64,000 bases of DNA from the NCBI GenBank assembly GCA_039802005.1, contig JBDRVV010000011.1, positions 1-64,000 on the forward strand, given 5' to 3'. This document shows, in pieces, positions 22,962 to 39,309 of this stretch (position 1 is its first letter; each line of letters begins with the position of its first letter). A program made the translations under genes and the position numbers. This DNA is from a candidate division WOR-3 bacterium. GTDB lineage: Bacteria > Hydrothermota > Tepidihabitantia > SM23-42 > JAOAFX01. Below the pieces are notes generated by a model that did no database searches, was not told the origin of the DNA, and saw nothing but the letters and a program-made list of their open reading frames with translations.

Positions 22962-24236
22962 ATGAATAAAAATCTCGTCCAAAGGGATGTTTTCCCTTCA
23001 ATTCTTAGTAGTCTTTCAGAAAAAGAAATAACTGTAATTATCGGACCGAGGCAGACCGGGAAAACTACGATTTTATCTCAGCTGAAAGAACATATGATAG
23101 AAAAACAGAATATCCCCGCTCAGAAGATAAAGATTTTCAATTTGGATTTGATGACTGACCTTGCTCTATTTAGCAGCCAGACAGATTTTCTGAAATACTT
23201 GGAAGATGAATTAAAGATTCACAAAAATTTATACCTATTTATTGACGAGGCGCAGAGATTAGAAAATCCTGGACTTTTTTTGAAAGGAATATATGATCAG
23301 ACACTACCTGTGAAATTTGTAGTTACTGGTTCTTCTTCACTTGAAATGAAATCAAAGTTTTCAGAATCGCTTGCTGGAAGAAAAAGAATATTCCGAGTAT
23401 ATCCTTTTTCTTTCTTTGAATTTCTAAAACATAAGGACCCAACCTTGTTTAAAATTTTGTCCACTAGTGATAAGATTTCATCTTATCACCACAATCATAT
23501 TCTTTCTTATCTTTATAATTTTATTATTTTTGGTGGCTATCCCAGGATAGTTCTTGAAGAAAATAAAGAGCAAAAGATAAAACTTCTGGAAGAAATTTAT
23601 TCAAGTTATATAGAGCGTGATATTATAGGATTTATGAGGATAAAGAATCCTTTTGCCTTCAACAGGTTGGTTACACTACTCGCCGGCCAGATTGGTCAAA
23701 TGACCAATTTCCATGAAATCTGCACGACGATAAAAATGAATTATCGGACGCTTGAGAATTATCTTTCAATCTTGGAAAATACATTTATTCTATCACTGGT
23801 ACGACCTTATGCGACAAATTTAAGAAAAGAATTAACCAAGATGCCCAAGGTGTATTATGTTGATACTGGGTTCAGAAACTTTGCTCTGAAAGATTTTACT
23901 AACTTTGAAAATCACCGTGACAGAGGTTCTCTGTTGGAAAACTTTTGCTATTCTGAATTTTCAAAAAGATGGAATGGAGCAATATACTTCTGGCGAACAA
24001 AAGAAAAGGCTGAGGTTGATTTTGTACTGAAGGATTATTATGGCAATATAATTCCACTTGAGATCAAAGCACAGGAAATGTCCAAACCTTCAATAACGAG
24101 AGGTCTTCAAAGTTTCATAAAAACCTATCCTGTGAAAAAGGCGTATGTAATTAATCTCGCCTTGAAAGAAAAGATAATGTTGAATTCTACCCAGATTGAA
24201 TTTATTCGACCATATGAGATTTTATCAATAACATAA
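22962..24236 (+). CDS. AAA ATPase with DUF4143 domain
   Basis: A 424-residue protein of the AAA_14/DUF4143 family, abundant in anaerobes and archaea. Walker A GPRQTGKTT is near residue 29, Walker B LFIDEAQRLE near 95, sensor VTGSSS next. The C-terminal nuclease-like part has EVDFVL and PLEIKA. These proteins are of uncertain role (defence or mobile association has been suggested). It is monocistronic, with its own leaderless-type promoter. Confidence 0.88.
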   Translation: MNKNLVQRDVFPSILSSLSEKEITVIIGPRQTGKTTILSQLKEHMIEKQNIPAQKIKIFNLDLMTDLALFSSQTDFLKYLEDELKIHKNLYLFIDEAQRLENPGLFLKGIYDQTLPVKFVVTGSSSLEMKSKFSESLAGRKRIFRVYPFSFFEFLKHKDPTLFKILSTSDKISSYHHNHILSYLYNFIIFGGYPRIVLEENKEQKIKLLEEIYSSYIERDIIGFMRIKNPFAFNRLVTLLAGQIGQMTNFHEICTTIKMNYRTLENYLSILENTFILSLVRPYATNLRKELTKMPKVYYVDTGFRNFALKDFTNFENHRDRGSLLENFCYSEFSKRWNGAIYFWRTKEKAEVDFVLKDYYGNIIPLEIKAQEMSKPSITRGLQSFIKTYPVKKAYVINLALKEKIMLNSTQIEFIRPYEILSIT

Positions 24237-24465
24237 CAATCTCTTTATATCCGTTAGCGTTCTTCAATCTTTTCCCGTTTTATTGTATTGTACATGGTTG
24301 CCTTTAATATTCTTCTTGTTACACTTTATTCTTGAAGTTGTCCACATTAATTTCTTTCTTTTAAAAATTTTTGAAATTATGCTACAAAAATTTACTACAA
24401 ATTTAAGAACCAAAATCGTGCAAACCCGCATAAAATCAGGTTTTTTACCCATATTCATTTTCCTC
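24237..24465. other. Gap without a supported gene
   Basis: AT-rich spacer after the AAA ATPase. A 70-codon plus-strand ORF at 24283-24495 has no ribosome binding site, is hydrophobic by T-richness and overlaps the promoter, so I reject it. No terminator hairpin with a T-run was found. Confidence 0.5.
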
Positions 24466-24493
24466 TTGACAAAAAACATTATGTTAATAGAAT
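24466..24493 (+). promoter_or_regulatory. Promoter of the RiPP-like cluster
   Basis: TTGACA at 24466-24471, a 16-bp spacer and TAGAAT at 24488-24493 end 5 nt before the ATG of the repeat-containing ORF at 24499. This is the only strong promoter seen ahead of the cluster. Confidence 0.65.
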
Positions 24494-24498
24494 AGACT

Positions 24499-24733
24499 AT
24501 GCTGTTAATAGGAATTAGTAAATACTACCTACCTACCTACCTACCTTATAAGTCCATACAGCTTTTTTGAGTTATCATATTTTTTGCGCAAACAATTTAT
24601 GTTAAATTCTTCGCACGAATGCAGCCATTTATCAGAGAATGGGAAGTTGCTCTGGCTAGTAACAGAATACATACCTATTGATTTAGATGAAACAGAGGAA
24701 AAAATTCTATGCCAAAGGAAATCGTCATTTTGA
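24499..24733 (+). CDS. Short leaderless ORF split by a CTAC tetranucleotide repeat (possible phase-variable gene)
   Basis: From the leaderless ATG, 23 codons run through the repeat (24525-24546) and stop at TGA. Another frame from about 24548 is open to TGA at 24731-24733 and reads like protein (SFFELSYFLRKQF, then LLWLVTEYIPIDLDETEEKI). It has no ATG ahead of the repeat. Removing one 4-nt unit would join the two into a 76-residue protein that overlaps the HlyD-like start by 25 nt. The acidic tail faintly recalls PqqD-like peptide-binding domains; this is a guess. It could also be decayed sequence. Confidence 0.45.
24525..24546 (+). repeat. Tetranucleotide microsatellite, five CTAC units plus CT
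   Basis: Five exact CTAC copies and a partial sixth lie eight codons after the leaderless ATG at 24499. Slippage by a unit changes the frame of everything downstream up to 24733. Confidence 0.9.
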
Positions 24734-25815
24734 AAACCCAGGTCTTCAGGATGATTCGTCGATACTTGTATATTATGAGCAGAAACGCAATATTTATTCT
24801 ATTTATCATCTTTTTGCTTGCTGTGATTAACATTTTGTTAATTATAAAATTGAGTACGAAACAGGAGATTGTTGCCTTAGGATATATTGATGCTAAAAAT
24901 AAAATCAAGGTGTATTCAAAAATAAACGGGATTGTAAAATACATATTTGTTAAGGATTGCCAGGAGGTTAAAATTGGGGATACACTGGTTATTTTTGATA
25001 AAACAGCTATCGAAAATGAATTATATTCGCTCTTGTTCAAACGTGAGAATCTTGAGGATGAGATATCTGAGTTACTTATTAGTGAAAAGAATTTATTTCA
25101 AAATTGTCTCTATGAATCATCTTGGGGGAATGTTAGTGTAGAGCAGTTAAAATATCAACTCGATGAAGCATATTCAAAATACATAATTGCAGAAACTCTC
25201 TATAGTAAACACCTAATAAGCAAATCAGATTACGATAGTAGAGTGAGAGACTACAAGATTAAACTCGCTACATATAATGTGTACAACCAGAGTGTAGTCA
25301 TACAACATAAGCGATATAAGAGATTAATAAAGCAGAAAGTGCGGGAGTTACAAGTGATTCAAAACGAAATATCTACTTTAAAGAGTAAGTTAGCCGCAGC
25401 AGTAGTTTGTTCACCCATCGATGGTTTTTGCTGTCTAAAAAATGCACTGGATGTGGGAAAAAAAATTAATGAAGGGGATGAATTACTTGAATTGTTTAAT
25501 TTAGAAAACATTTACTTTTCGTGCCATATAAGCGAAAACGAAGTTTTTAAAGTTAAGAGGGGAACAAAGGTTAAAATTTTTCTTAACGCATATCCATTTC
25601 CGCAATATCCGTGGCTTGATGGTGCAGTAGATGCAATAGACGAAATTGTAAATCCGGATGACTGGGGCAGAGGTTGGGTAAGGATGAAAATAACAGTTAC
25701 GAATGTCCCTGATTGCTTGATTTCAAAGCTTTACCTGTCAGGCAAGGCAAAAATCAGCACTCATTCAGATGTACCGTTAATTACCAAGATTTTTGGTGTA
25801 CATTCAAAATTTTGA
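24709..25815 (+). CDS. HlyD-family periplasmic adaptor (membrane fusion protein)
   Basis: A 368-residue adaptor with one N-terminal TM helix (AIFILFIIFLLAVINILLII, about residues 22-45). Then come a lipoyl-like half (KINGIVKYIFVKDCQEVKIGDTLVIFD), a long coiled-coil region (about 100-215), the second lipoyl half (AVVCSPIDGFCCLKN) and a beta-barrel segment. Such adaptors link an inner-membrane ABC exporter to the outer membrane, as in bacteriocin and RTX export. The ATG at 24709 has AGAGGA about 10 nt upstream. It heads a same-strand run with the maturase, precursor, peptidase and exporter. Confidence 0.88.
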   Translation: MPKEIVILKTQVFRMIRRYLYIMSRNAIFILFIIFLLAVINILLIIKLSTKQEIVALGYIDAKNKIKVYSKINGIVKYIFVKDCQEVKIGDTLVIFDKTAIENELYSLLFKRENLEDEISELLISEKNLFQNCLYESSWGNVSVEQLKYQLDEAYSKYIIAETLYSKHLISKSDYDSRVRDYKIKLATYNVYNQSVVIQHKRYKRLIKQKVRELQVIQNEISTLKSKLAAAVVCSPIDGFCCLKNALDVGKKINEGDELLELFNLENIYFSCHISENEVFKVKRGTKVKIFLNAYPFPQYPWLDGAVDAIDEIVNPDDWGRGWVRMKITVTNVPDCLISKLYLSGKAKISTHSDVPLITKIFGVHSKF

Positions 25816-25829
25816 AGATGGAGGATACA

Positions 25830-27290
25830 ATGGCAATGGACAATGAAAATTCTGTCAACGCTTCAGAAGTTTATTCGAATATACATTACGACCCGAGAGA
25901 AATTCATATTTTTAGAATTGAAAGCAAAAATTTAGCATTTAAATCTTCTACACTTGAAATATATCAGTTAGATGAGATGGCGTATGAATTTTTGACTTCT
26001 CCAAAAACAGCCATTGAAAAATATTCTTTGACTGAAATTAGTGACCTGTACGCTGCTTTATTGAAATTAGGCTTTTTTGATAGTCTCAAAGATGATAAAA
26101 TAGATAATCTATCCAGTGTGAATGCTTCTCAACCTATATCGCAATTAATGATGATTGTGTCACAAGATTGCAATTTGAATTGCATTTATTGCCTTGCTGA
26201 CAAAGGTGCTTTTTATAAAAGACACACGCCCATGCCACCCGAAATAGGCATTAAATCTATAGATTTTTTAATGCACGAATCTGGTGATGCAAAAATTTGT
26301 TTAGTTTCGTTTACGGGTGGAGAACCATTATTAAACTTTCCGACGATAAAGATCACCGTGGAATACGGCAAGAAAATGGCAGAGAAGTATAATAAAGAAA
26401 TTCTTTTTCTTCTTTCTACAAACGGTTCTGTTCTTGATGATAAAATACTGCAGTTTATAAAGAATTATAAAATATACCTGAATCTAAGTTTAGATGGACC
26501 ACCTGATGTCCAGAATCGATGTAGACCATTCAAAAACGGAATAGGTTCATATGACATAGTAGTAAAGAATCTCAAAAAATTATTAGAACATTATGATCCA
26601 GACAGGATATTAATAAGGACGACGATCACAAGGTATAATTTAGATATGATTAATACAGCTGAACATTTTTTTCAGCTTGGGGCAAGAAGACTTTCGTTTG
26701 GTAAAGCCGCGCCAAATGCGTTTTGTGATTATCGGATATATGGAATTGATCCTAATACCGCAATGGGAGAGATTTATCTTAAAAATTACCTTAATTTCTG
26801 TAAATACATGGTTGAGTGTTTTATGCAGCGTCCCGAGATATCTTTTGCTAATATGAGAGATATTGCAAACTTACATTTTAGATTAAGAAAACCCTTGGGC
26901 TGTGGAATGGGACAATACCAAGTTGCTATTTCGCCAAATGGCGAAATATATCCTTGCGGCGTGTTTATTGGACTTCAAAATTACCTCATGGGGAATTTGA
27001 ATCAAGGATTCAGCAGAAATTGTCAGTCGAAATATCACCAGATTATTAGTAACCGGAGAAAAATTTGTAATGTGTGTTGGGCGAGAAATATATGTGGGGG
27101 CGGATGTCATGCCGGGGATCTATTGGATGATTATAAACCAATTTCAGAAATTGTCTGTAATTTCGCCCAAAGAGTTCTTGAAATAAATTTGTTTGCTTAT
27201 GCTTATTTGGTTGACTTAGTTGGGTACGAATATTTAAATAAGAGACTTGCTAAATACCGGGCGGAGAGAACTTCTGCTGAGGGTACTTAA
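25830..27290 (+). CDS. Radical SAM/SPASM peptide maturase
   Basis: A 486-residue enzyme. The N-terminal ~100 residues (IHIFRIES...LEIYQLDEMAYEFL) resemble the recognition region of thioether-forming (SCIFF/ranthipeptide-type) maturases. The radical SAM motif CNLNCIYC is at about 113-120. TGGEPLLNF is the SAM-binding GGE motif. A C-terminal SPASM domain has CGMG, YPCG and CNVCWARNICGGGC for auxiliary [4Fe-4S] clusters. GGAGG at 25820-25824 fixes the ATG at 25830, although the frame is open further upstream. It probably modifies the Cys-rich peptide encoded 33 nt downstream. Confidence 0.9.
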   Translation: MAMDNENSVNASEVYSNIHYDPREIHIFRIESKNLAFKSSTLEIYQLDEMAYEFLTSPKTAIEKYSLTEISDLYAALLKLGFFDSLKDDKIDNLSSVNASQPISQLMMIVSQDCNLNCIYCLADKGAFYKRHTPMPPEIGIKSIDFLMHESGDAKICLVSFTGGEPLLNFPTIKITVEYGKKMAEKYNKEILFLLSTNGSVLDDKILQFIKNYKIYLNLSLDGPPDVQNRCRPFKNGIGSYDIVVKNLKKLLEHYDPDRILIRTTITRYNLDMINTAEHFFQLGARRLSFGKAAPNAFCDYRIYGIDPNTAMGEIYLKNYLNFCKYMVECFMQRPEISFANMRDIANLHFRLRKPLGCGMGQYQVAISPNGEIYPCGVFIGLQNYLMGNLNQGFSRNCQSKYHQIISNRRKICNVCWARNICGGGCHAGDLLDDYKPISEIVCNFAQRVLEINLFAYAYLVDLVGYEYLNKRLAKYRAERTSAEGT

Positions 27291-27323
27291 AGACAACAGT
27301 GCGGTTGAAAGGAGGTGATAGAT

Positions 27324-27461
27324 ATGGCACACATAAGGCTTCTTAATCGAGGACCAAGCGTGCCTCATACGACTGAACCACCATCGCCTTGTACCTGTTG
27401 CCCAGAATTAAACTTTGGGGCAACTGTTGAGTGCGATGGCCTTTATGTCTACATTCCATAA
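27324..27461 (+). CDS. Candidate RiPP precursor peptide, 45 residues, Cys-rich
   Basis: A short gene with an excellent Shine-Dalgarno site (AAAGGAGGTGATAG at 27308-27321). The product starts MAHIRLLNRGPSV, continues with a Pro/Thr-rich linker and ends in a Cys-bearing core: PCTCCPE, then ECDGLYVYIP. Cysteines are at 23, 25, 26 and 37. A basic leader, a Pro linker, four clustered Cys and a position directly after a SPASM maturase and before a peptidase and exporter are what a ribosomally made, modified peptide would show. It matches no family I can name. The modification (thioether or other) is inferred. Confidence 0.75.
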   Translation: MAHIRLLNRGPSVPHTTEPPSPCTCCPELNFGATVECDGLYVYIP

Positions 27462-27516
27462 ATAATCGCATCTCTGCAGGGTTCTTTCCGCCCTTATACG
27501 AAGAAAGGAGTTTAAT

Positions 27517-28557
27517 ATGAATCATGTTGTTCTAATAAAGTATCCTAAGCTTGTCATTTTTCTATGCCTCTTAACTTGCTTTCCCCACATTAATAGTGAA
27601 AAAAGCAAGTTAGTGCAAATAGAAGAAGCATGCCGCGAATACTTCAATACGGCATACACGCATAATTACGCTAAATACTTGCAGTTTTATTCAAAACATG
27701 ATACACCATCGGATTCTACTACTTTTGACAAATGGTGTAAAATCCTTTCTAATCTCAAAATTGTTGTGGATGGTGTTGAAAAGAAATCATACAATTCTAC
27801 TTCATATTATAGAGTTTTAGTTTCCGCTTATACAAAAGATGGTAAGCAAAAAGTAATGGAAAGGATTGTCTATTTTGCCGATGAGAATGGTAAGATAGTT
27901 ATTGTAAATTGGAAATTCTTTACAAAAGATTGGAAATTATTTCGGTCAAAATACTTTAATATCTATAGCAGGCAAATTGTATCTGATAGTATGATAACCG
28001 ACATTGATAATTTTTATGAAGATGTAACACAGGAACTGGGAGTACAGCACGAACGAATCGATTACTATCTATGCAAAGACAAAGAGGAAGCAGGCTTGCT
28101 CCAGGGTAAACTAAGTAGTGCAGGTGGTACTTGTTTCCCCGGGAAAACAAAAACAATAATTGCTCCCGCGCTGAGTTATCATGAAATAGTTCACGCAATT
28201 ACATATGCGATTGTTGATGTTTCCATGGACTTTTTGGTGGAAGGAGTTGCTACTTACTATACGTTTATATGGGAACCACAGAAGCTAGATAGTATTATAG
28301 ACGAATTGAGATTGAAAAATCAATTAGCTCCTCTTGATACTCTTATGTGGAAATTTCGTAGTATTCCTGAAGACATTGCCTATTTTGAGGCTGCTTCTTT
28401 TGTTAAATTCTTGATTACAAATTATGGCATTAAGTCTTTTGTGGCATTATACAAAGGAGCAAAAAGTTGGGACAGCCTTGTTGCAGCGTTACACGAAATC
28501 TATGGAAAGGCGCTGAATGAAATTAATGACGAATGGTTATTGTGGTTAACGAAGTAG
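27517..28557 (+). CDS. Secreted HExxH metallopeptidase-like protein
   Basis: A 346-residue protein with an N-terminal hydrophobic signal (KLVIFLCLLTCFPHINS), so it acts outside the cytoplasm. The N-terminal ~130 residues (FNTAYTHNYAKYLQFYSKHD) resemble an NTF2/DUF4440-like fold. The C-terminal half has a gluzincin zinc site, HEIVH at about 222-226 with the third ligand in LVEGVATYY some 15-20 residues later. AAAGGAG precedes the ATG. In this cluster it may trim the exported peptide or act in self-protection. Neither role can be decided from sequence. Confidence 0.78.
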   Translation: MNHVVLIKYPKLVIFLCLLTCFPHINSEKSKLVQIEEACREYFNTAYTHNYAKYLQFYSKHDTPSDSTTFDKWCKILSNLKIVVDGVEKKSYNSTSYYRVLVSAYTKDGKQKVMERIVYFADENGKIVIVNWKFFTKDWKLFRSKYFNIYSRQIVSDSMITDIDNFYEDVTQELGVQHERIDYYLCKDKEEAGLLQGKLSSAGGTCFPGKTKTIIAPALSYHEIVHAITYAIVDVSMDFLVEGVATYYTFIWEPQKLDSIIDELRLKNQLAPLDTLMWKFRSIPEDIAYFEAASFVKFLITNYGIKSFVALYKGAKSWDSLVAALHEIYGKALNEINDEWLLWLTK

Positions 28558-28567
28558 GAAGTAGAGA

Positions 28568-30334
28568 TTGGATAACAAATCAGACTTCGGAGTTGAACTA
28601 AGATTTATACGCTCTTTTATCTTACCTCATTGGAAAGTAGGAATTACAATTCTATGTGCCACTTTATTATCTACGGGCTTAAGGACCGTTAGACCACTGT
28701 TGATTCTATTCTTGATTGATGATGTTTTCGTGTGCAAAAATTTTACATTGTTGAAGGGCGTTGCCTTTCTGTATTTCCTAAATGTAGCCATATCTTATAT
28801 TCTCCTTTTGCTTCAAGACTTTTGGATTGAAAAAACAAAACAGAAAATCAAATTTTTTATACTATTGGGTTTGTTTAAGCATATTCAACTATTGCCAATT
28901 TCTTTTTTCAGAGATAAGGAATCAGGATACTTAAGTACCCGAATAATATCAGACACAGAATCATTGGGCAACATATTTACTGATATATTTACTAATATTG
29001 CTACCCCTTTCTTTACCATTATCGCTATCATTTCCATAACATTTGCAATTAGTGAAATCTTAGCTCTTGCTATGATTATTTTAATTCCTATTTATGTTTT
29101 GATGACATTTTTATTTCTTAGAAGAATAAGACGAGTAACTAATGAAGTACAAGAAGCACAAGCAACCATGGGGAATAAATATCAGGAAGTTTTCTCTTCC
29201 GTTTATTTTATCAAATCGCATGGTCTTGAAAACTTTTTTAAATTAAGAATAATTAAAGATTTAAAAGCTTTAATTAAAAGGTCAATAGTAAAAGAATATC
29301 TAAGGGCAGCTATCTATGATACAACTTCTTTGATAACTGCCTTGAGCACATTAGCTGTGATATACATCCTTGGAATTCAAATTATGCACGGCAGAACATC
29401 TGTGGGAACGGTCTATGTTGTGATTGCGTATCTAAATATGATTTTTTCGAATATCCAATCTCTCATATATACAAATACAAGGATTCAACAATCAATTGCT
29501 ATAATTAAAAGAATTTATCATGTTTTAGATACCCCTGTTTCTGGTGAATATCAATGTGGATTAGCACCTCCCGTGGTAAAGAAAGTGCGATATTATAATG
29601 TTACGTTTGCCTATGATTCAAAGAAGGAAATATTAAAACAGATAAATTTAGTTTTTAATGAAAATGAAATTACTGCACTGGTGGGGGAGAGTGGTACAGG
29701 GAAGACAACTATAATAAATTTGTTGTTAGGATTATACGATTCATATAAAGGGAAAATCTTTCTAAATAACACGGAATTAAGAAGAATTGACAAACGAGCT
29801 TTAAGGAGGATGATAAGTTTGGTTCCACAGGAACCGTTCTTGTTTAGCACTACAATCAAAGAGAACATAAAGATGGGAAAACCTGATGCCTCTGATAAAG
29901 AAATAGTAGAATCAGCGAGATTGGCTTACGCCCATGATTTTATTAACAATCTTCCCTATCGTTATGAAACGATAGTTGGCGAAAAAGGTGCTAAACTATC
30001 GGGCGGTGAAAAACAAAGGATTGCATTAGCACGCGCAATCATAAAGAATCCAAAAATTTTGATTATTGATGAAGGAACTTCCCAAATTGATTCATTTTCA
30101 GAAAATCTCATCCAGAAATCTTTGAAGAATTTAAAGCGCGGACGTATCATTATTTTAGTAGCTCATAGGCTTGCCACCATATTAGAAGCCGATATGATAT
30201 TTGTGTTAGATAAAGGCAAAATTGTTGCTAAAGGAAACCATGATTATTTATTAGAAAACTGTGAATGTTACCGACATCTATTTGAATCTCAGATTGAAGC
30301 GCTAACACCAAAAAATTTATCAAAAAATCAGTGA
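28568..30334 (+). CDS. ABC exporter (fused TMD-NBD)
   Basis: A 588-residue type IV ABC half-transporter with six TM helices in the first ~320 residues. Walker A GESGTGKTT is near 374, Q-loop LVPQEPFLFS, signature LSGGEKQRIALARA near 477 and Walker B ILIIDEG near 497. There is no N-terminal C39 peptidase domain, so leader removal must be done by another protein, plausibly the HExxH neighbour. The start is TTG at 28568 after AGGA. With the HlyD-like adaptor it would form a trans-envelope exporter for the peptide. Confidence 0.9.
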   Translation: MDNKSDFGVELRFIRSFILPHWKVGITILCATLLSTGLRTVRPLLILFLIDDVFVCKNFTLLKGVAFLYFLNVAISYILLLLQDFWIEKTKQKIKFFILLGLFKHIQLLPISFFRDKESGYLSTRIISDTESLGNIFTDIFTNIATPFFTIIAIISITFAISEILALAMIILIPIYVLMTFLFLRRIRRVTNEVQEAQATMGNKYQEVFSSVYFIKSHGLENFFKLRIIKDLKALIKRSIVKEYLRAAIYDTTSLITALSTLAVIYILGIQIMHGRTSVGTVYVVIAYLNMIFSNIQSLIYTNTRIQQSIAIIKRIYHVLDTPVSGEYQCGLAPPVVKKVRYYNVTFAYDSKKEILKQINLVFNENEITALVGESGTGKTTIINLLLGLYDSYKGKIFLNNTELRRIDKRALRRMISLVPQEPFLFSTTIKENIKMGKPDASDKEIVESARLAYAHDFINNLPYRYETIVGEKGAKLSGGEKQRIALARAIIKNPKILIIDEGTSQIDSFSENLIQKSLKNLKRGRIIILVAHRLATILEADMIFVLDKGKIVAKGNHDYLLENCECYRHLFESQIEALTPKNLSKNQ

Positions 30335-30464
30335 CAACATCTGGGGGGGCGTCTTTCATCAAAATAAAATCTTACCCAAATTAAATTTAGATTCTCAGGC
30401 GAATAAGAGTATAGTTTTAGAATTGAATTAATCATGCTCTTTACTCCTGTGATCATATCTCTTT
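30335..30464. other. Spacer between the exporter and transposase remnant
   Basis: No gene seen. The stretch includes a run of seven G after the exporter stop and AT-rich sequence. It marks the boundary between the peptide cluster and insertion-sequence debris. Confidence 0.4.
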
Positions 30465-31366
30465 CTATGCACTCGGACAATTCAAAGCCCGATTGTATGG
30501 CGTATCAATATCATAGGTCTTATAAACCTTGCCCCCAACCCGCACCTTCTTCTGCAGCATCATCTTGGGAATAAAATAATTATGCAAGGTGGAAATCAAC
30601 GGCATCAACTCTTTTAAAAGCATCCGTATCATAACGACAATAACCAACATACGAACGCACCAAAGTAAAATTCTGACTTTCCACTGTCCTGCCCAAACCA
30701 TCGTTATTCTGTGCCGTTCTGAATTCAACTCCACATTCCTAACCCGACCTTTGGCTTCTCAAAATGCGGCTCCACCGGAATTTTCTTCTTCAAAACCGAG
30801 GCATGCGGATGGGGACGATACCGCCGGGCTATACGATACTGGTCTTTGATTGGTTTTAATAACCGCTCAATCGTTGCCGAACTGATGGTCTTTAAAAGGT
30901 CTTTAATTGATTCGGGAATATGTTTTAATGGCTGTAAATCATACCGTTCTTCTTCAGGAAATGTATCAAGATATGTTTGTGCGATACCATTAAAGAGCCA
31001 GTCTTGATTGATGGTAATAAAGGCTTTGAGATGGATGCTGGAGCGATAATGAGACAATACCCACAGGGCTTTGAGATAGGGTAATAATTCCTGGGTGTAT
31101 TTCTTTTTTCGGCCACGTTTATGGACAAAGGTAATAGTTGGGTCACCCACGAGTTTTACACCTTGGGGGGTATAATAGACCTTGCCGGTATGATTAAGAA
31201 GTGTAGTGATGTATTTTCTGTGCAAATGGAGGGCCTTTACGAGGTCATCAAGGATTTCTTTTTTCTGCTTTTTTGACGCCTTGCGATAAAGCAAGGCATT
31301 TGATTTAATTATTGACCTTTTGGCTTTCATGGTGTATACTTCCTCCGGAATATCTATTGCGATCAT
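30465..31366 (-). pseudogene. DDE-integrase-type transposase remnant
   Basis: Two overlapping minus-strand pieces belong to one decayed transposase. The 5' piece (30725-31366, 213 residues) has the helix-turn-helix region (KKEILDDLVKALHLHRKYIT) and linker up to EPHFEKPKVGLG. The 3' piece (30465-30734) ends with the typical tail YFIPKMMLQKKVRVGGKVYK. The central catalytic DDE core is missing, so the element has an internal deletion and frameshift. A short inverted pair, ATAGGGGCTCC/GGGAGTCCCTAT at about 31367-31405, may be its end. Confidence 0.8.
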
Positions 31367-31369
31367 AGG

Positions 31370-31627
31370 GGCTCCTTTCAGGAAATATATACTTGGGAGT
31401 CCCTATGTTTTCAAGTACCTGAGTAAGATAATTTATTTTGATTAAATAACCCCATTTCGGTAAGATTATTTTCTTTGAAATATTGTCAATATAACACCTA
31501 ATAACACTTACATTTTATTTTCTCCATTAAACGGTTATTAACTGGATATTTCCATACTCAATCTTCTTTCGGTGCTTTAAAGCATATTGTATTACCTCGG
31601 AGTCCCAGGTCCTAACCTTTGACCGAG
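31370..31627. other. Non-coding stretch downstream of the IS110-type transposase
   Basis: About 260 bases without a gene. Near the transposase end is a CTCGG...CCGAG stem (about 31596-31625, minus or plus). In IS110/IS1111 elements one non-coding end encodes the bridge RNA, so this or the upstream flank could hold one. I could not fix the element borders. Confidence 0.35.
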
Positions 31628-32677
31628 TCAGTGAAATTGACTAAAATAATGTGAGGTTTCCTGGGGCTCTTGGTACTCTTTTTTTGTTCGTAAAACCCAA
31701 TAAGCAAACATCGCTAATTTTCGCGCTGTCGCTATCGCCGCGGTGGCCTTGCCTTTTAAACGACTCTTTTTCTCATAATAGAAACCTAAATAAGGTGAAG
31801 ACCTTGTCGCCGGATAAACGGCCTCAATAAACGCCCACTTCAACCATTTATTGCAACCCTTGATTAAATGGCCATGATAAATCCGTCCACCAGAGGCATA
31901 GATTGAAGGGACTAAACCACAGTAACTCCAGAAATGGCGATAGCTTTTAAAGCGATTAATATCGTCAATTTCCAGGGCAATCAACGGGGCGAAGACCTCA
32001 CCAATCCCAGGTATGGTCTGTAAAAGTCTTACTCGTTCATCCTGGAATAAATCGTCTTTTATTACTTCGCGCAAGTCCTTTAATAAGGATTCGACATATT
32101 GGAGGAGTTGAAGATGCTGTTTGAGGAGCAAAGATTCTTCACCGGGCAGAACCACGGACTCAAGAAATCTTCTGCCTAATCTCCCAAATAAATCAGTAAC
32201 CGAGGGTAAGGGGATATGATTGCGCTCAAGGAGAATATGAATACGGTTTTTAATCCGGGTTGAAGTATTGACCAGGAAAGTGCGATGTCTAAGCAAGTAT
32301 TTTTTCACTCTGATTTCTTTGGCTGGGACGTAGACCTCAGGGATATAATTAACCCTTAATAAATGAGCCAGTGTCTTTGCATCAACGGTATCGGTTTTAA
32401 GGTGAGCATGGGCAATTGCTTTAACCTTAACAGGATTGGCTAAGAGTACTTTCTCCACCTGGGGCATGCTTTCAAATAAATCATACACCACGCCCCAATT
32501 TCTTCCTGCTTCTAAAACCACCTGATAAGTAGAATTGTTTTCCAAAGACGTAAAGAGCTTATGCACCTCCTCTACGGTATTTGCTATTCGCACAATAGTT
32601 TTGAACGTGCCATCTTCAGTTGCCACCGCTACCACAGAGTATTTTTTATGTGCATCCACACCAAGATAATATGTCAT
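31628..32677 (-). mobile_element. IS110-family transposase
   Basis: A full-length 349-residue DEDD recombinase. The N-terminal RuvC-like domain starts MTYYLGVDAHKKYSVVAVA with the first catalytic Asp. The second conserved block is LLQTIPGIGEVFAPLIALEI followed by YCGLVPSIYASGG, the transposase_20 domain with the catalytic Ser expected near GGRIYHG. GGGAGG precedes the ATG at 32677. It looks intact. Together with the broken transposase it separates the peptide cluster from the next operon. Confidence 0.92.
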
Positions 32678-33022: not shown

Positions 33023-33325
33023 ATGCCCAATCCCTGGGATAAAATAGTGGGAACAAAAGAATATAATAAAAACTACGAAAGGCTAATCAAGGTTGCCCGT
33101 CAAAAAGGCTATGTCTTTAATAAAAAGATAAGCCGGGTAAAAAAGGTGATTGGTCTGATGACAATGAATTATCTTGAATACGGAAAATACTATTGCCCCT
33201 GTAAACAGAGTGAACCACCGGACCTGAAAAATGATGTTCTCTGCCCCTGCCCGACACTTGATGAAGAAGTGAAAAAAGATGGACACTGTTTTTGTGAATT
33301 ATTTTTTAGGAAGGAGAAAAAATAA
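33023..33325 (+). CDS. Ferredoxin:thioredoxin reductase catalytic-type protein
   Basis: A 100-residue protein with the FTR beta-subunit Cys pattern: YYCPCKQ, LCPCP and GHCFCELFF. These ligate a [4Fe-4S] cluster next to a redox-active disulfide. The ATG at 33023 follows AAAGGAGGCGAT; an in-frame extension upstream is not needed. It probably hands electrons from ferredoxin to thioredoxin-like partners. It opens the operon behind the structured leader and is followed by a palindromic CCCTTGAAGGGAGAG unit at 33345-33378. Confidence 0.88.
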   Translation: MPNPWDKIVGTKEYNKNYERLIKVARQKGYVFNKKISRVKKVIGLMTMNYLEYGKYYCPCKQSEPPDLKNDVLCPCPTLDEEVKKDGHCFCELFFRKEKK

Positions 33326-33389
33326 GACCCTTAGCATTCTTCTTCTCCCTTGAAGGGAGAGAATACAGGTAAGGGTGAAAGGAATTTAT

Positions 33390-34667
33390 ATGTCTGGTAA
33401 CAACTATGAAAAGATGTGGCAAGAATTAGGACTTGATGTAAATTTGCATAACGAAGTCCTCAATTATATCAATAAATGTTTTCAAAATACCGTCGGGAAG
33501 CAAAAAAATCGTCCCAAAACGATGGAATATTTTGATAGTGTGCTCCACGAATCGCATGGTGGCAGGGTTGCAGAATTGATTGAAGAAAAATCCAAGGGCA
33601 AAAAGATTGTCGGATTTTTCTGTATCTATGTTCCTGAAGAGATAATAATGGCTTTGGATTTAGTGCCAATTGCCCTGTGCGGGGGCACAAATTTTTCTGT
33701 TCCTTATGCTGAAAAAATGCTACCCAGGGATATCTGTCCACTTGTAAAATCTACCTTAGGCCTTGCTTTCTCAAAGACCTGCCCTTATGCGCCAATAAAG
33801 AGTCTTGCCGTCGGTGAGACAACCTGCGATGCAAAGAAAAAAGTATGGGATATCCTTGCCCAGAAGGTAAATTTCCATATTATGGAATTGCCTCAAAAAA
33901 AGAATGTTATCGATGCCAATCTCTGGGAGAATGAAATTCATTTGTTTGCTGAGAATTTGGAGAAACTTGCAGAAAAGAAATTAAACCCATCTGTCTTGAA
34001 AGAAAAAATTGAGATAATGAATAATAAACGGAAAGTACTTCAGCGATTGGCTAAACTGAGACTCAAAGAACCAACACCAATCAGTGGTCTTGATACCCTG
34101 GTTGTTATGCAGGCAGCATTAAATGATGAACCTGTTCGCTTCACGAAAAAAGTTGAAGAATTGTGTGATGAACTTGAAGACAGAATAAAAAAAGGGATTT
34201 CACCATTTTCAGACAAGGCAAAACGAATTATGGTCTCAGGTTGCCCATCGGTTATGGGAAACTGGAAGATCCATTCTTTAATAGAAACTTCAGGGGGTGC
34301 AGTAGTAGTTGATGAGACCTGCACCGGTGTGAAATATTTCAAGGACCTTGTTGATACAAAGGCGAATGATGTTGATGGACTCCTTGGTGCAATTGCTGAC
34401 CGTTACTTAAAGTTAAACTGCTCCTGCTTTACACCGAATAATGACCGCCTTGATATGGCAAGGAATCTGGCAAAAGAAGGAAATGTAAAAGGGGTTGTTC
34501 AGTACATCCTTCAGTATTGCCACACTTATAATATCGAAGCTATCAGAATTGAAGGTGCATTAAAACAAGATAACATGCCGAGTTTAAAGATTGTTACCGA
34601 CTATTCAGAAGAAGATACTGCACAACTACGCACAAGGATTGAAGCGTTCTTAGAGACATTGAAATAA
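33390..34667 (+). CDS. 2-hydroxyacyl-CoA dehydratase/double-cubane-type FeS protein
   Basis: A 425-residue protein of the HgdB/BcrB/double-cubane-cluster family. It has many conserved Cys: DICPLVKS, KTCPYAPI, TTCDAKKK, SGCPSVMGNWK, ETCTGVKYF and NCSCFTPNNDR. GFFCIYVPEEIIMALDLVP is the family's N-terminal core. AAAGGA sets the ATG at 33390 (a GTG at 33375 is in frame). With the activase encoded downstream it would use ATP to reach very low potentials. The absence of a second dehydratase subunit nearby favours the single-subunit double-cubane type over a true dehydratase. Confidence 0.87.
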   Translation: MSGNNYEKMWQELGLDVNLHNEVLNYINKCFQNTVGKQKNRPKTMEYFDSVLHESHGGRVAELIEEKSKGKKIVGFFCIYVPEEIIMALDLVPIALCGGTNFSVPYAEKMLPRDICPLVKSTLGLAFSKTCPYAPIKSLAVGETTCDAKKKVWDILAQKVNFHIMELPQKKNVIDANLWENEIHLFAENLEKLAEKKLNPSVLKEKIEIMNNKRKVLQRLAKLRLKEPTPISGLDTLVVMQAALNDEPVRFTKKVEELCDELEDRIKKGISPFSDKAKRIMVSGCPSVMGNWKIHSLIETSGGAVVVDETCTGVKYFKDLVDTKANDVDGLLGAIADRYLKLNCSCFTPNNDRLDMARNLAKEGNVKGVVQYILQYCHTYNIEAIRIEGALKQDNMPSLKIVTDYSEEDTAQLRTRIEAFLETLK

Positions 34668-34714
34668 TGGGCAATAAAAGGCAATTAGGGGCAATTAAGG
34701 GCAATAAAGGCAAA
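34668..34714 (+). repeat. Direct repeat array (GGGCAATAAAG/GGGCAATTAA)
   Basis: Four imperfect 10-11-nt copies fill the gap between the dehydratase-type gene and its activase. They resemble the arms of the palindromic elements in the hydrogenase operon. A weak AAAGG in the last copy is the only possible ribosome site for the activase. Confidence 0.75.
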
Positions 34715-34716
34715 TA

Positions 34717-35487
34717 ATGGTTACCGCCGGAATTGACATAGGTTCAAGGACTATTAAGTTTGTGTGTCTTAATGATAATAAAATTTTTGATTACCAGATT
34801 ACTGATACCACAGTAGAACCACTTAAAAAGATTGAAGAGGTTTTAAAAGACAAGAAATTTGACCAACTTGTAGCAACCGGTTATGGAAGATACCTGATGC
34901 AGGAGAATTACAATTGTCCGATTGTAACCGAGATAAAGGCATATGCAACCGGCGCCTATTTTTTCTATCCCGACTGCCGGACCGTCATTGATATTGGTGG
35001 GCAGGATACAAAAGTGATAAAAATAAAAAGTGGGGAGGTTGCTGATTTCGAAATGAATGACCGTTGTGCCGCCGGGACCGGAAAATTCCTTGAGGTTATG
35101 GCACAGACACTCGGCTACAAAATAGAAGATTTTGGCACCGAAGCCTTGAAAGGTAGTAACTCTATACCAATAAATTCAATGTGCACGGTCTTCGCGGAAT
35201 CAGAAGTGATATCTCTTATTGCCCGTGGTGAAGATAAAAAAGATATCGCATTGAGTCTGCACCATTCAATAATTAACCGGGTAATGACCATGGTTTCAAG
35301 AATGAATCCTGAACAAAAAATTGTCTTTGCCGGCGGTGTGGCAAAGAATAAATGTATGGTTCAATTGCTGAAGAAAAAATTGGGAAATATATTAGTTCCT
35401 GAAGAGCCCCAGATAATCGGCGCCTTGGGCGCAGCAATAATCGCTGCTAAAAATTTTGAAATAATGACAATAAAAGAAAGGAGATAA
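34717..35487 (+). CDS. ATP-dependent activase of the dehydratase/BCR type (HgdC/BadF-like)
   Basis: A 256-residue ASKHA-fold ATPase. GIDIGSRTIKFV is the phosphate-1 loop, TVIDIGGQDTKVI the second, and the bridging [4Fe-4S] Cys are in NDRCAAGTGKFLE and INSMCTVFAESE. The homodimer injects electrons into its FeS partner when it hydrolyses ATP. Its partner is the protein encoded just upstream. A paralogue is at 51958. Confidence 0.93.
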   Translation: MVTAGIDIGSRTIKFVCLNDNKIFDYQITDTTVEPLKKIEEVLKDKKFDQLVATGYGRYLMQENYNCPIVTEIKAYATGAYFFYPDCRTVIDIGGQDTKVIKIKSGEVADFEMNDRCAAGTGKFLEVMAQTLGYKIEDFGTEALKGSNSIPINSMCTVFAESEVISLIARGEDKKDIALSLHHSIINRVMTMVSRMNPEQKIVFAGGVAKNKCMVQLLKKKLGNILVPEEPQIIGALGAAIIAAKNFEIMTIKERR

Positions 35488-35489
35488 AT

Positions 35490-36266
35490 ATGAACCGAAT
35501 TAAACCCCTCTATACAATCGCTATCTTGTTAACATTAGCAGGCATAAGCAGTTCTTCAGTTATGCCAATGATCGGGATAGATCTTCAGATGAGAAACAAA
35601 TATGTATGGCGCGGGGCGGTGTTTAATAATGAACCCGTGCTCTGGCCTGACTTATGGATAAACTGGTCTGGTATTACATTTTGCACTTGGGGATCCCTTG
35701 ATTTGACGGACACAAAGCAAAAACAATTTCAAATTACCGACTTGGCGTTCTATCTTGATTATACACGGGCTATAGGTCCTATTACGCCCACTATGGGTTT
35801 TGTCCTTTACACATATCCTGGGTCTGCTTACGGTCCATCATTTCCGACCACGGGTGAGATCTATCTTAAAATTGGTAGCGATCTAAAACTCGTTCAAGGA
35901 CTCCTTAGCATAAACTACGATATAATTAAAGCAAAAGGATTTTACGCTTCTCCATCTATTTCAAAAGGTTTCTCTTTTGGTCCACTTGGTGCAAATTTTA
36001 CACTGGCACTCGGTTTAGCAGATGGCAAACATAATGCCTACTACTACGGACTGGACAAGTTCTGCCTAACCGATTTTGGAGCAACGTTAAAAATTAATTA
36101 TATACCACCCGGGAATCTATCAAAATACCTAACCATTACCGGAGACATAAATTTTGCTGCAATTGTTGATTCCGAACTCAAAGAGTATATCCAGAGTTTT
36201 ACAAATACCCAGAACTTGCATGGTGGGTTCGGACTGAGTATCGTGTATTCATTCGGAGGTGAATAG
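35490..36266 (+). CDS. Secreted beta-rich (outer-membrane-like) protein
   Basis: A 258-residue protein with a signal peptide (LYTIAILLTLAGISSSSV). The rest alternates polar and aromatic residues in strand-like stretches (YVWRGAVFNNEPVLWPDLWINW; FTLALGLADGKHNAYYYGL), as in small outer-membrane barrels. It ends YSFGGE, not the usual terminal Phe. It overlaps the symporter gene by one base, so it may be a porin for the same solute. No family recognised. Confidence 0.7.
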   Translation: MNRIKPLYTIAILLTLAGISSSSVMPMIGIDLQMRNKYVWRGAVFNNEPVLWPDLWINWSGITFCTWGSLDLTDTKQKQFQITDLAFYLDYTRAIGPITPTMGFVLYTYPGSAYGPSFPTTGEIYLKIGSDLKLVQGLLSINYDIIKAKGFYASPSISKGFSFGPLGANFTLALGLADGKHNAYYYGLDKFCLTDFGATLKINYIPPGNLSKYLTITGDINFAAIVDSELKEYIQSFTNTQNLHGGFGLSIVYSFGGE

Positions 36267-37828
36267 TGGCGCCGACTTTCTTTTTCTGGTCCGCGGCAAT
36301 AGCATACTTTTTATTTGTAATAACCATTGGTTATGTAATTTGGCGAAAAATCCACAAAGATACCGCCACCCATCAAATTCTTGATTTCTGGATTGCAAGC
36401 AGACGTTTTCCTGGTTGGCGTCTGGCAATTTCTCTTACTGCTGGTTGGTTAATGTTAGGATGGTTAGGATACGGTATGTCTATGATTTACCAAATGGGAT
36501 TATCAGGTATATGGATACTGCCCTTACCATGGTTTATATTATGTTTTATCATAATCTTAATGGTTCCATTTGTGCGTAGATTACCAGCAATTTCACTACC
36601 CGAAGCTATTCAAAAAAGATTTGGGGGGCCAACACGCTTAATAATTGGATTATGTTCAATTTTCGTCTTCACATCCTGGACCGGTGCGGAATTATTTATG
36701 GTCGGGCATTTGGGGGCGCCGTTTTTGAAGATAACCCCGGTAACGACAATGATTATTGTGGCAATTCCAATAATGATCTACACCTATTTCGGTGGATTCA
36801 GGGCTGTAGTGATTACTGATTTTTTACAATTCGTATTTATGGCAATATTTATAACGGTATTGGGTATAGTTAGTATTAACACAGCTTCGGCAATTACAAA
36901 CGGAGATATCATCAGCACTTTGAAGAATACACCCACCCCTTATTATGGAAAAGATACCATGTTCAATCTTTTTGCCTGTGGTATTGCAATGCCGATTATT
37001 CTTTTATTCGCCTATCTCCCGGGATGGATGATTGAACAAGATCTATTATTGAGAATTCAGGGGGCAAATAGTTTAAAAGAAGCAAAGAAGGGTGCCTGGC
37101 TTGCGCTTGTTTTGATCACTGTCTTTGTTATAACAATCCCCACAATCATTGCTTTTTGTGCACTCATTCTCTTTCCTCCAGGGTTGGAGTCAAGTGCTAG
37201 TGCAATCGGTGCTGACGCAACGGGCATCATCTCCGCAATCATTTTGCAATATTTTCCATTCTGGGCGCAGATTCTTATGCTCGTGGGATTGCTCTCTGCC
37301 CAGATGTCTACAGTAGATACCTTTGCTAATGTTACTGCACTACCACTTACTTATGACATAATTCAACCAAATTTCATGAAAGGACTTTCACGCGAAAAGA
37401 TTGCCCAATTGTCAAGAATATTATCAATGTTTGCAATTGGGCTTGCGCTTATCTATGCTATTAATGCTACTTCTTTGATGGATGTTTATATCCTTTCATC
37501 TGGTGTTCTTACTGCGTCAATCGCAATACCTGCTTTTGCAATATTTTGGAAAAAAGCTAACCGTTTAGGCGTGATATTAAGCTCAATCCTTGGATTTGTC
37601 GGAAATGTTGCATTCTATATTCTCGAATATCATATCTGGAAGCACAATTATTCGCCAAAGTGGCTTGCAGATACATATTTAGGTTATATTATCATTGGAC
37701 TTGTTGGTTCGATCATTGGTTTAATTGTTGGCTCTTTGATAGGAAAACCTTCAACTCCCGAAGAAATAAAGGTAGTAGCACCTCAACCACTTGAAGGAGT
37801 TGAAATATTTGATATTGCAAAAGAATGA
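36266..37828 (+). CDS. Sodium:solute symporter (SSS family)
   Basis: A 520-residue protein with about 13 TM helices. Family patches include DFWIASRRFPGWRLAISLTAGWL and the inverted-repeat helices, with YTYFGGFRAVVITDFLQ and SAQMSTVDTFANVTA as the Na+-site signature. The start is GTG, overlapping the previous TAG, with GGAGG upstream. The substrate is unknown. It is followed by a small-molecule methyltransferase of the sarcosine/glycine type, so a methylamine or osmolyte is possible. Confidence 0.9.
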   Translation: MAPTFFFWSAAIAYFLFVITIGYVIWRKIHKDTATHQILDFWIASRRFPGWRLAISLTAGWLMLGWLGYGMSMIYQMGLSGIWILPLPWFILCFIIILMVPFVRRLPAISLPEAIQKRFGGPTRLIIGLCSIFVFTSWTGAELFMVGHLGAPFLKITPVTTMIIVAIPIMIYTYFGGFRAVVITDFLQFVFMAIFITVLGIVSINTASAITNGDIISTLKNTPTPYYGKDTMFNLFACGIAMPIILLFAYLPGWMIEQDLLLRIQGANSLKEAKKGAWLALVLITVFVITIPTIIAFCALILFPPGLESSASAIGADATGIISAIILQYFPFWAQILMLVGLLSAQMSTVDTFANVTALPLTYDIIQPNFMKGLSREKIAQLSRILSMFAIGLALIYAINATSLMDVYILSSGVLTASIAIPAFAIFWKKANRLGVILSSILGFVGNVAFYILEYHIWKHNYSPKWLADTYLGYIIIGLVGSIIGLIVGSLIGKPSTPEEIKVVAPQPLEGVEIFDIAKE

Positions 37829-37839
37829 AAGGGGGTATT

Positions 37840-38637
37840 ATGGAGATCTATAAAAAAGACTATACAATAAAGGATGTCCAGGATGTGTATGATGGTCCTG
37901 GTGGTCTGCTCTGGGAGGCAGTGATGGGGGAGCAGATTCACTCCGGCGGACCAGAAGCGACCGATGTCCTGGCACAAAAACTGGGTTTAAAACCCGGAAT
38001 GGTCGTTGCTGACCTTTGCAGTGCGCTCGGTGCACCAGCAAGGCATCTGGCAAGCAAATATGGGGTCTATGTGAAGGGAGTTGATGCCACAAAGACGATG
38101 TTAAAAAAGGCAATTGAAAGGACCAAGGCGGCAAAACTTGAACATATGATTGAATACTATGAAGGGAATGTGATGGATTTGCCTTTTAAGTCAGGAACCA
38201 TTGATGTCGTCTGGGGGCAGGAAGCTTGGTGTTATGTAACGGATAAAGAAAGACTTTTGCGTGAGGCATATCGGGTATTGAAACCCGGGGGCAAGATTGG
38301 ATTTACTGACTGGATTATTACCGGGAAAATCACGCCCCAGGAACTTGAACCACTCTACGATTCTATGGCATTTCCATATATGGAGTCGTTTGAAGGTTAT
38401 CAGGAGCTTATGAAGAAGGTTGGCTTTAAGGTTCTTGAGGCGATTGATAATACCGAGGCATTTGCCAAGCACTTTGACCAGTACTATGAAATGGTGACCG
38501 TAAAAATGAAACCCGATATTCTAAAGAACTTTGGTCCAGACCTCTATAGTTTTGCCGAGAACCTGGTCACGATCTGGCGCAAAGCCGCACACAACCATCA
38601 GGTCGGCAGCGGCTTATTTATCGGACAAAAACCATAA
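37840..38637 (+). CDS. SAM-dependent methyltransferase (UbiE/glycine-sarcosine type)
   Basis: A 265-residue class I methyltransferase. Motif I is modified to VADLCSALGAPARHLA, with acidic loop GVDATKTML, then GNVMDLPFKSGTIDVVWGQEA and LLREAYRVLKPGGKIGFTDW. The N-terminus (YDGPGGLLWEAVMGEQIHSGG) and C-terminus resemble sarcosine/dimethylglycine methyltransferases. AAGGGGGT sets the ATG at 37840. It might methylate a small amine or an arsenic/selenium species; the neighbouring YedE-type transporter makes the last idea worth testing. Confidence 0.82.
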   Translation: MEIYKKDYTIKDVQDVYDGPGGLLWEAVMGEQIHSGGPEATDVLAQKLGLKPGMVVADLCSALGAPARHLASKYGVYVKGVDATKTMLKKAIERTKAAKLEHMIEYYEGNVMDLPFKSGTIDVVWGQEAWCYVTDKERLLREAYRVLKPGGKIGFTDWIITGKITPQELEPLYDSMAFPYMESFEGYQELMKKVGFKVLEAIDNTEAFAKHFDQYYEMVTVKMKPDILKNFGPDLYSFAENLVTIWRKAAHNHQVGSGLFIGQKP

Positions 38638-38649
38638 AAAGGAGGTAAA

Positions 38650-39309
38650 ATGAAACAACTAAAAACCCTAATCATCCTTGGATGCATAGTGATTGCATCC
38701 CTCACTATCTTTTGCGGAAAAGAAGAGGAAGAAAAAATAACTGATCCCACACCATTGAATCCAGTAGTCATTGATACCGCTAATAATGAAGTGAAGATAT
38801 CCTGCGTAGTAAACAGGATGTGGGTAGATGATTCTGTATCAAATCATAATTGCATTGTTTCGAAATATGGCACCAATGGTGGCAAGGCAGTGCTGGTCGC
38901 TAATGTCCATCATTCCGATTTTTATTTTGCGTTACTCACTGTCGGTGCCGATCCCGGTGTTGACATTGGTGACCCCCCTGATACCAATGGAGTTCCTACG
39001 GGAACCGAATTCAAGGTATTGGTAAAGTTTGATGGCGATACTACGATATATGATATTAACGAACTTGTTGAAGATTCTTTAGGCAGAGAATTCAAATGCC
39101 GAATGCATAACAGTTATGCGCGTGCCGAAGCATTGAACAAAGGTTGCATCTGGTGTTATACCACTTGCAAGACTTCAATCACGAGCAACCCATCCTATAC
39201 TGCATATGATTTTTACTATAGCGGTGTAAAATGGCCCTTCAGACCGATCAAGGAAAAATGGCCTGCTGATGGCACTCATGCGGTTGTGATTTTCAGAAAG
39301 GTACAATAG
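38650..39309 (+). CDS. YdjY-domain lipoprotein, paralogue 1
   Basis: A 219-residue predicted exported protein: signal sequence, then a Cys (LTIFCGKEEEE) and a charged linker, then a domain that resembles YdjY: NEVKISCVVNRMW, HHSDFYFALLTVGADPGVDIG and PTGTEFKVLVKF. The tail carries GCIWCYTTCKTSITS, three Cys that could bind a cofactor. It shares about 45% of residues by eye with the protein at 40413. AAGGAGG precedes the ATG. Role unknown; a periplasmic electron-transfer role fits the redox neighbourhood. Confidence 0.75.
   Translation: MKQLKTLIILGCIVIASLTIFCGKEEEEKITDPTPLNPVVIDTANNEVKISCVVNRMWVDDSVSNHNCIVSKYGTNGGKAVLVANVHHSDFYFALLTVGADPGVDIGDPPDTNGVPTGTEFKVLVKFDGDTTIYDINELVEDSLGREFKCRMHNSYARAEALNKGCIWCYTTCKTSITSNPSYTAYDFYYSGVKWPFRPIKEKWPADGTHAVVIFRKVQ

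Follow-up and report, generated by a model that had tools for sequence, protein, structure and literature searches.

Precursor ORF and cassette layout

In the 64,000-nucleotide (nt) stretch of DNA analysed here (the window), a short ORF lies between the genes for a radical-SAM maturase and a metallopeptidase, and the question is whether it encodes the peptide that the maturase modifies. An earlier note had proposed a Cys-rich precursor of 45 residues with Cys at residues 23, 25, 26 and 37, starting 33 nt after the maturase and ending 55 nt before the peptidase. Translation of 27324-27461 places the four Cys at these residues, and the gaps from the maturase stop at 27290 and to the peptidase start at 27517 are as claimed. 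The surrounding cassette has the order HlyD, maturase, precursor, MA peptidase and ABC exporter (Table 1).

Table 1. Coordinates of the cassette and its features in the window
Feature	Position	Strand	Evidence or remark
Five-gene cassette	24302..30348	+	99.6% identity with species G069 (blastn)
Sigma-70-like promoter TTGACA-N16-TAGAAT, 5′ of first cassette gene	24466..24493	+	Consensus match only, 11/12; best match of the region
HlyD-type membrane-fusion protein (predicted export)	24709..25815	+	Pfam HlyD_D23 1.2e-11
Radical-SAM/SPASM maturase with N-terminal RRE (predicted)	25830..27290	+	Pfam, NCBIfam, CteB 2e-56, AlphaFold, Foldseek
Shine-Dalgarno AAAGGAGGTGAT	27308..27319	+	Ends 4 nt 5′ of precursor ATG 27324
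Precursor peptide ORF, 45 aa	27324..27461	+	Translates to MAHIRLLNRGPSVPHTTEPPSPCTCCPELNFGATVECDGLYVYIP
Leader recognition motif MAHIRLLN (residues 1-8)	27324..27347	+	Matches CteA MKHIKILN, QhpC MKHLKxxN
Core CTCCPELNFGATVECDGLYVYIP (residues 23-45)	27390..27458	+	CxCxPEL common to window peptide and L013
MA-clan metallopeptidase, candidate leader peptidase	27517..28557	+	Pfam Peptidase_MA_2 1.8e-6, under curated cutoff
MsbA-type ABC exporter, TTG start as listed	28568..30334	+	Pfam ABC_membrane + ABC_tran; NCBIfam

The mechanical ORF list sets the precursor start at GTG 27315, which lies within its Shine-Dalgarno site. The ATG at 27324 is favoured because the homologous ORF of locus L013, described below, has the same layout. 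The site had been called the best of the cluster, and this agrees with its being the longest there, the remaining cassette genes having shorter ones, and with AAGGAGGTGAT, a near-complete complement of the anti-Shine-Dalgarno sequence, occurring only once in the window, both strands counted, and there 4 nt 5′ of the precursor ATG. The peptide had no match in Pfam (0.001), NCBIfam (E 10) or the PDB sequences (E 10), and an Rfam scan of the window gave no match.

The maturase

The maturase has a CxxxCxxC motif at C114/C118/C121 and SPASM Cys at 358, 376, 413, 416, 422, 426 and 443, and none of the three SAM-cluster Cys or the seven SPASM Cys varies among 29 sequences. Its closest solved relative by sequence is CteB. 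The AlphaFold model (486 residues, pLDDT 86.4, from 29 sequences) matched 5why and 5wgg over 452-453 columns in Foldseek, with a TM of 0.78 over 453, and residues 25-79 of the model fold as beta-beta-beta-alpha-alpha-alpha, a wHTH-like arrangement typical of an RRE. The maturase is thus predicted, with high confidence, to be a CteB-like, RRE-bearing enzyme with a seven-Cys SPASM domain.

In NCBIfam, the maturase scored high for the SCIFF, nif11, PapB and QhpD maturases and remained under every equivalog cutoff, with 243 bits for the SCIFF maturase TIGR03974 (cutoff 425) and 236 bits for PapB (NF047865; cutoff 340) of the PapA/PapB (freyrasin) system. Therefore, the family name does not tell which type of bond is made. 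The maturase tree groups the SCIFF maturases with 100/100 support and leaves the long-branched window maturase outside that clade.

A probable docking leader shared with known substrates

The chain of CteA residues 1-21 that was co-crystallised with CteB (PDB 5WGG) starts with MKHIKILN. On binding, the CteA leader is reported to join the RRE of CteB as an extra strand (PMC6231123, PMC8326336), and binding by QhpD requires the QhpC leader (PMC7876137). To score the resemblance of the precursor to such leaders, the seven residues after its start Met were compared with 10,188 ATG starts from 80 loci that had been chosen solely for the similarity of their maturases, and a score of at least 16 was taken as a good match. 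Forty starts reached this score, and 36 of them adjoin the maturase on its strand; since the loci are interrelated, these 36 matches are not independent events. They comprise SCIFF precursors (MKHIKTLN...), QhpC subunits (MKHLKxxN...) and a Cys-rich ORF of locus L045 (MKRIELLN...). With 399 shuffled leaders the mean was 0.5 maturase-adjacent matches, and the observed value was reached by two of them (2/399), which are anagrams of the same residues. Among 366 N-termini of the window tested, the precursor included, no other gave more than 10 such matches. The match is also not automatic, because in Omnitrophota, Eremiobacterota and Riflebacteria most of the related maturases have no such leader-bearing neighbour.

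Because the ORF begins with the same N-terminal docking tag as known substrates of the maturase clade, its product is almost certainly the raw peptide modified by the adjacent radical-SAM enzyme. Docking of the leader on the RRE of the maturase is strongly supported by analogy, and residues 1-8 would bind the N-terminal domain as the CteA leader binds CteB. In this way, a motif already explained by a crystal structure connects a small ORF that would otherwise go unrecognised with its maturase, and for the same reason the precursor claim can be tested at once by co-expression.

The SCIFF peptides and QhpC (loci among L018-L097) share an N-terminal M-x-H-[IL]-K-x-x-N despite their unrelated cores, and no statement of this common motif was found in the cited literature. 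The slightly wider form M-x-H-[IL]-[KR]-x-x-N may help to find hidden substrates of the clade beyond SCIFF and QhpC. In a Bacteroidetes MAG, locus L045 (5977-12261) encodes a maturase, the Cys-rich ORF (MKRIELLN...TPCCNTCNSD...), a TonB-dependent receptor and an ABC exporter; the leader of the Cys-rich ORF is of the same type, and the ORF follows a similar Shine-Dalgarno site (AAAGGAGGTGA).

A homologous locus in another family

L013 is a contig locus in G084, a genome of the same order and another family, and has the gene order HlyD (28% identical), maturase (33%), a 52-residue ORF (MTHIRKINDQNMGVPIENEAERCYVEPCGQCQYVYSCPCDPELPVCKQNDIC) and an MA-peptidase ORF. The last of these matches the window peptidase (E 7.5e-12), has HVLTH where HExxH is expected and runs off the contig. 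Because the tree branch joining the two maturases is long and unresolved, their sister relation is taken from synteny. The ribosome site AAAGGAGGTGATA is identical in the two loci, and the sequence 5′ of the small ORF is AAAGGAGGTGATAACTATG in L013 and AAAGGAGGTGATAGATATG in the window.

When the two peptides were aligned, a leader of the form M[AT]HIRx[LI]N, the first Cys at residue 23 and the motif CxCxPEL were common to both. In all the loci examined, with 16,366 ORFs together, C.C.PEL was limited to these two peptides, its repeated hits being overlapping copies of the two loci and the identical copy in G069, another species of the genus. The cores are otherwise strongly divergent, with four Cys in the window and seven in L013, and for this reason no single crosslink pattern is kept beyond CxCxPEL.

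These comparisons bear on several points of the earlier note. It had asked for a related ORF next to a related maturase, and L013 provides one, intact and directly 3′ of the 33%-identical maturase in the same gene order. No frame-breaking indel was seen, the G069 copy being 100% identical in DNA and the L013 ORF intact, though too divergent for third codon positions to be compared. As for the Cys positions, that of the first Cys and the C23/C25 pair are kept, and C26 and C37 are not clearly so. The CTCC spacing and terminal YVYIP had been called distinctive, and this does not hold for the family, which conserves the N-terminal leader and CxCxPEL instead; YVYIP is absent from the end of the L013 homologue, which has an internal YVY in its core. 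The precursor reading itself is supported by the syntenic homologue, the leader match to the substrates of related maturases and CxCxPEL.

A RiPP precursor is expected to be a short ORF that has a leader and a core, adjoins its modifying enzyme and is conserved in relatives, as is the case here, and the wHTH-like domain and near full-length match to CteB point to a leader-binding RRE in the modelled maturase. Synteny and the conservation of leader and core show the precursor identity, and the model shows the fold of the maturase. The ORF thus encodes a RiPP precursor belonging with the QhpD/SCIFF/PapB clade and, having four Cys, no match to the family and a maturase outside the SCIFF clade, is not a SCIFF.

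Proposed maturation and alternative readings

From the clade of the maturase (PMC8326336, PMC8172795), we infer that the enzyme most likely joins core Cys to nearby residues at non-alpha carbons. Since QhpD crosslinks Cys with Asp or Glu, the best candidate link would be a Cys-to-Glu thioether around CxCxPEL, from C23 or C25 to E28, and naming the conserved Glu as acceptor is a guess. A true precursor carrying another bond, either a sactionine to the alpha carbon or a carbon-carbon or ether link, is the strongest alternative and in our view unlikely, though it deserves weight: the maturase scores under all equivalog cutoffs and is long-branched outside the SCIFF clade, and the spacing to an acceptor is not clearly conserved. 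However, its closest characterised relatives (the SCIFF maturases, QhpD and PapB) make thioethers in which Cys is joined to a beta or gamma carbon (PMC8326336, PMC8172795), and four Cys in a 23-residue core behind a SCIFF/QhpC-type leader favour the same chemistry. The core lacks the Cys-x3-Asp repeats of PapA.

The precursor resembles QhpC, the gamma subunit of quinohemoprotein amine dehydrogenase, in its leader and in lying directly 3′ of a maturase of the same clade, which includes QhpD. It could accordingly belong to a periplasmic enzyme as a small cross-linked subunit instead of being a secreted natural product. We consider this improbable, because the cassette lacks dehydrogenase subunits, the flavoprotein QhpG and the subtilisin QhpE, has a different core and protease, and pairs a substrate of 45 aa, far shorter than QhpC, with a dedicated HlyD and ABC pair.

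There is also a likeness to the SCIFF ranthipeptides (SCIFF/ScfB/CteB, TIGR03973/TIGR03974; thermocellin, Tte1186), since both have the leader M-x-H-I-[KR]-x-[LI]-N, a maturase with RRE, radical SAM and seven-Cys SPASM domains, and a Cys-rich core beginning near residue 21-23. The 45-residue SCIFF core has six conserved Cys and the window precursor four; the SCIFF gene lies 5′ of its maturase and the window ORF 3′; the window maturase is about 30% identical to SCIFF maturases; and, unlike SCIFF, the window operon includes HlyD and an ABC exporter. That the precursor is a SCIFF with cysteines lost would explain its leader and is very improbable, given that it has no CQSACKTSC core and that its maturase falls outside the 100/100 clade. 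SCIFF identity was also refuted on the defining feature, as TIGR03973 gave no match at E 10 and a SCIFF control gave 5e-25. A chance ORF between two genes, suggested by its shortness and by DNA that is identical in the only close relative and so offers no substitution pattern, is hardly credible beside the syntenic homologue, the unique Shine-Dalgarno site and the leader match.

We return to the modified precursor, whose export and leader removal are inferred like its thioether chemistry and acceptor residue. Like double-glycine bacteriocins, it is a small peptide encoded with HlyD and an ABC exporter. Double-glycine/PCAT systems have a leader ending in Gly-Gly and a C39 domain, and the peptide has no GG and the exporter no C39 domain; apart from generic ATPase overlaps, the Pfam domains of the exporter are all those of ABC transporters. 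A separate protease is therefore expected, and the MA-clan peptidase is the candidate: its HEIVH motif and N-terminal hydrophobic segment suggest that it probably works outside the cytoplasm. The neighbouring proteins probably export and trim the peptide, which would leave the cell through the HlyD/MsbA-type system and have its leader stripped by the peptidase. In locus L018 (1299-2117) of a Bacillota MAG, an MA-clan peptidase likewise lies 3′ of a SCIFF-like maturase. Taken as a whole, docking of the leader on the RRE, formation of one or more non-alpha thioethers, HlyD/MsbA-type export and MA-clan trimming is a proposal that we hold to be highly probable.

Rarity, apparent transfer and further loci

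A profile of the window and L013 precursors found G000, G069 and G084 only among 147 genomes of the phylum (E 1e-22 or better; next best 0.01). The family is therefore rare, being present in 3/147 phylum genomes, and only two independent members are known. When the maturase search was widened to three other phyla and to 346 genomes of Bacteroidetes, the phylum of L045, many related radical-SAM genes were found; one G893 locus proved to be an ordinary SCIFF, and no further member of the precursor family was seen beside the genes inspected. Three plasmid regions were also inspected; there, radical-SAM genes adjoin genes of the FAD monooxygenase/halogenase type, or annotation is absent.

The 99.6% identity of the cassette to the locus in G069 exceeds that of the region just beyond it (33300-38700; 91%), which lies on a different contig in G069, and the immediate neighbours of the cassette differ on both sides between the window and G069. 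In the G069 locus, L012, direct repeats flank the cassette (6911-6955 and 14557-14601; 44/45 bases identical); by eye, they are alike over about 95 bases and have a hairpin-like sequence. The 45-base form occurs only in these two copies in the G069 genome and is absent from the window. The G+C content is 34% in the cassette and 38-40% around it. The higher identity of the cassette, its differing neighbours and the flanking repeats suggest that it moved recently as a unit. Directly left of the cassette in the window is an AAA/DUF4143 ATPase (22962-24236) matching the PADLOC candidate defence model PDC-S01, where G069 has a different gene. Directly right (30465-32677) are an IS110-family transposase (31628-32677) and a smaller ORF pair, absent from the G069 site.

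The precursor represents a new variation on a known enzyme clade and is rare in the searched genomes; with it, the QhpD/SCIFF clade gains a new substrate core, from an uncultured lineage. Tentatively, and with less confidence, it may represent a new RiPP family of an uncultured phylum in which an ancient QhpC/SCIFF docking leader carries its own CxCxPEL core (probably with a Cys-Glu thioether) and an MA-clan metallopeptidase trims it outside the cytoplasm, within a 6-kb cassette passing between species. If that reading is right, one leader motif is paired with several unrelated cores.

Two further loci encode Cys-rich ORFs beside QhpD-clade maturases. A second maturase of this clade in G084 (L014, 1180-2934) has an 89-residue Cys-rich ORF (MKHFKIITKLGQGLPIKAC...) upstream. 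A sigma-factor-like gene (3033-3536) lies close by, and the locus is likely another RiPP system. In a Clostridia MAG, two Cys-rich ORFs with spaced Cys/Asp (L022, 7438-7725 and 10373-10678) lie beside a QhpD-clade maturase and resemble freyrasin-type precursors.
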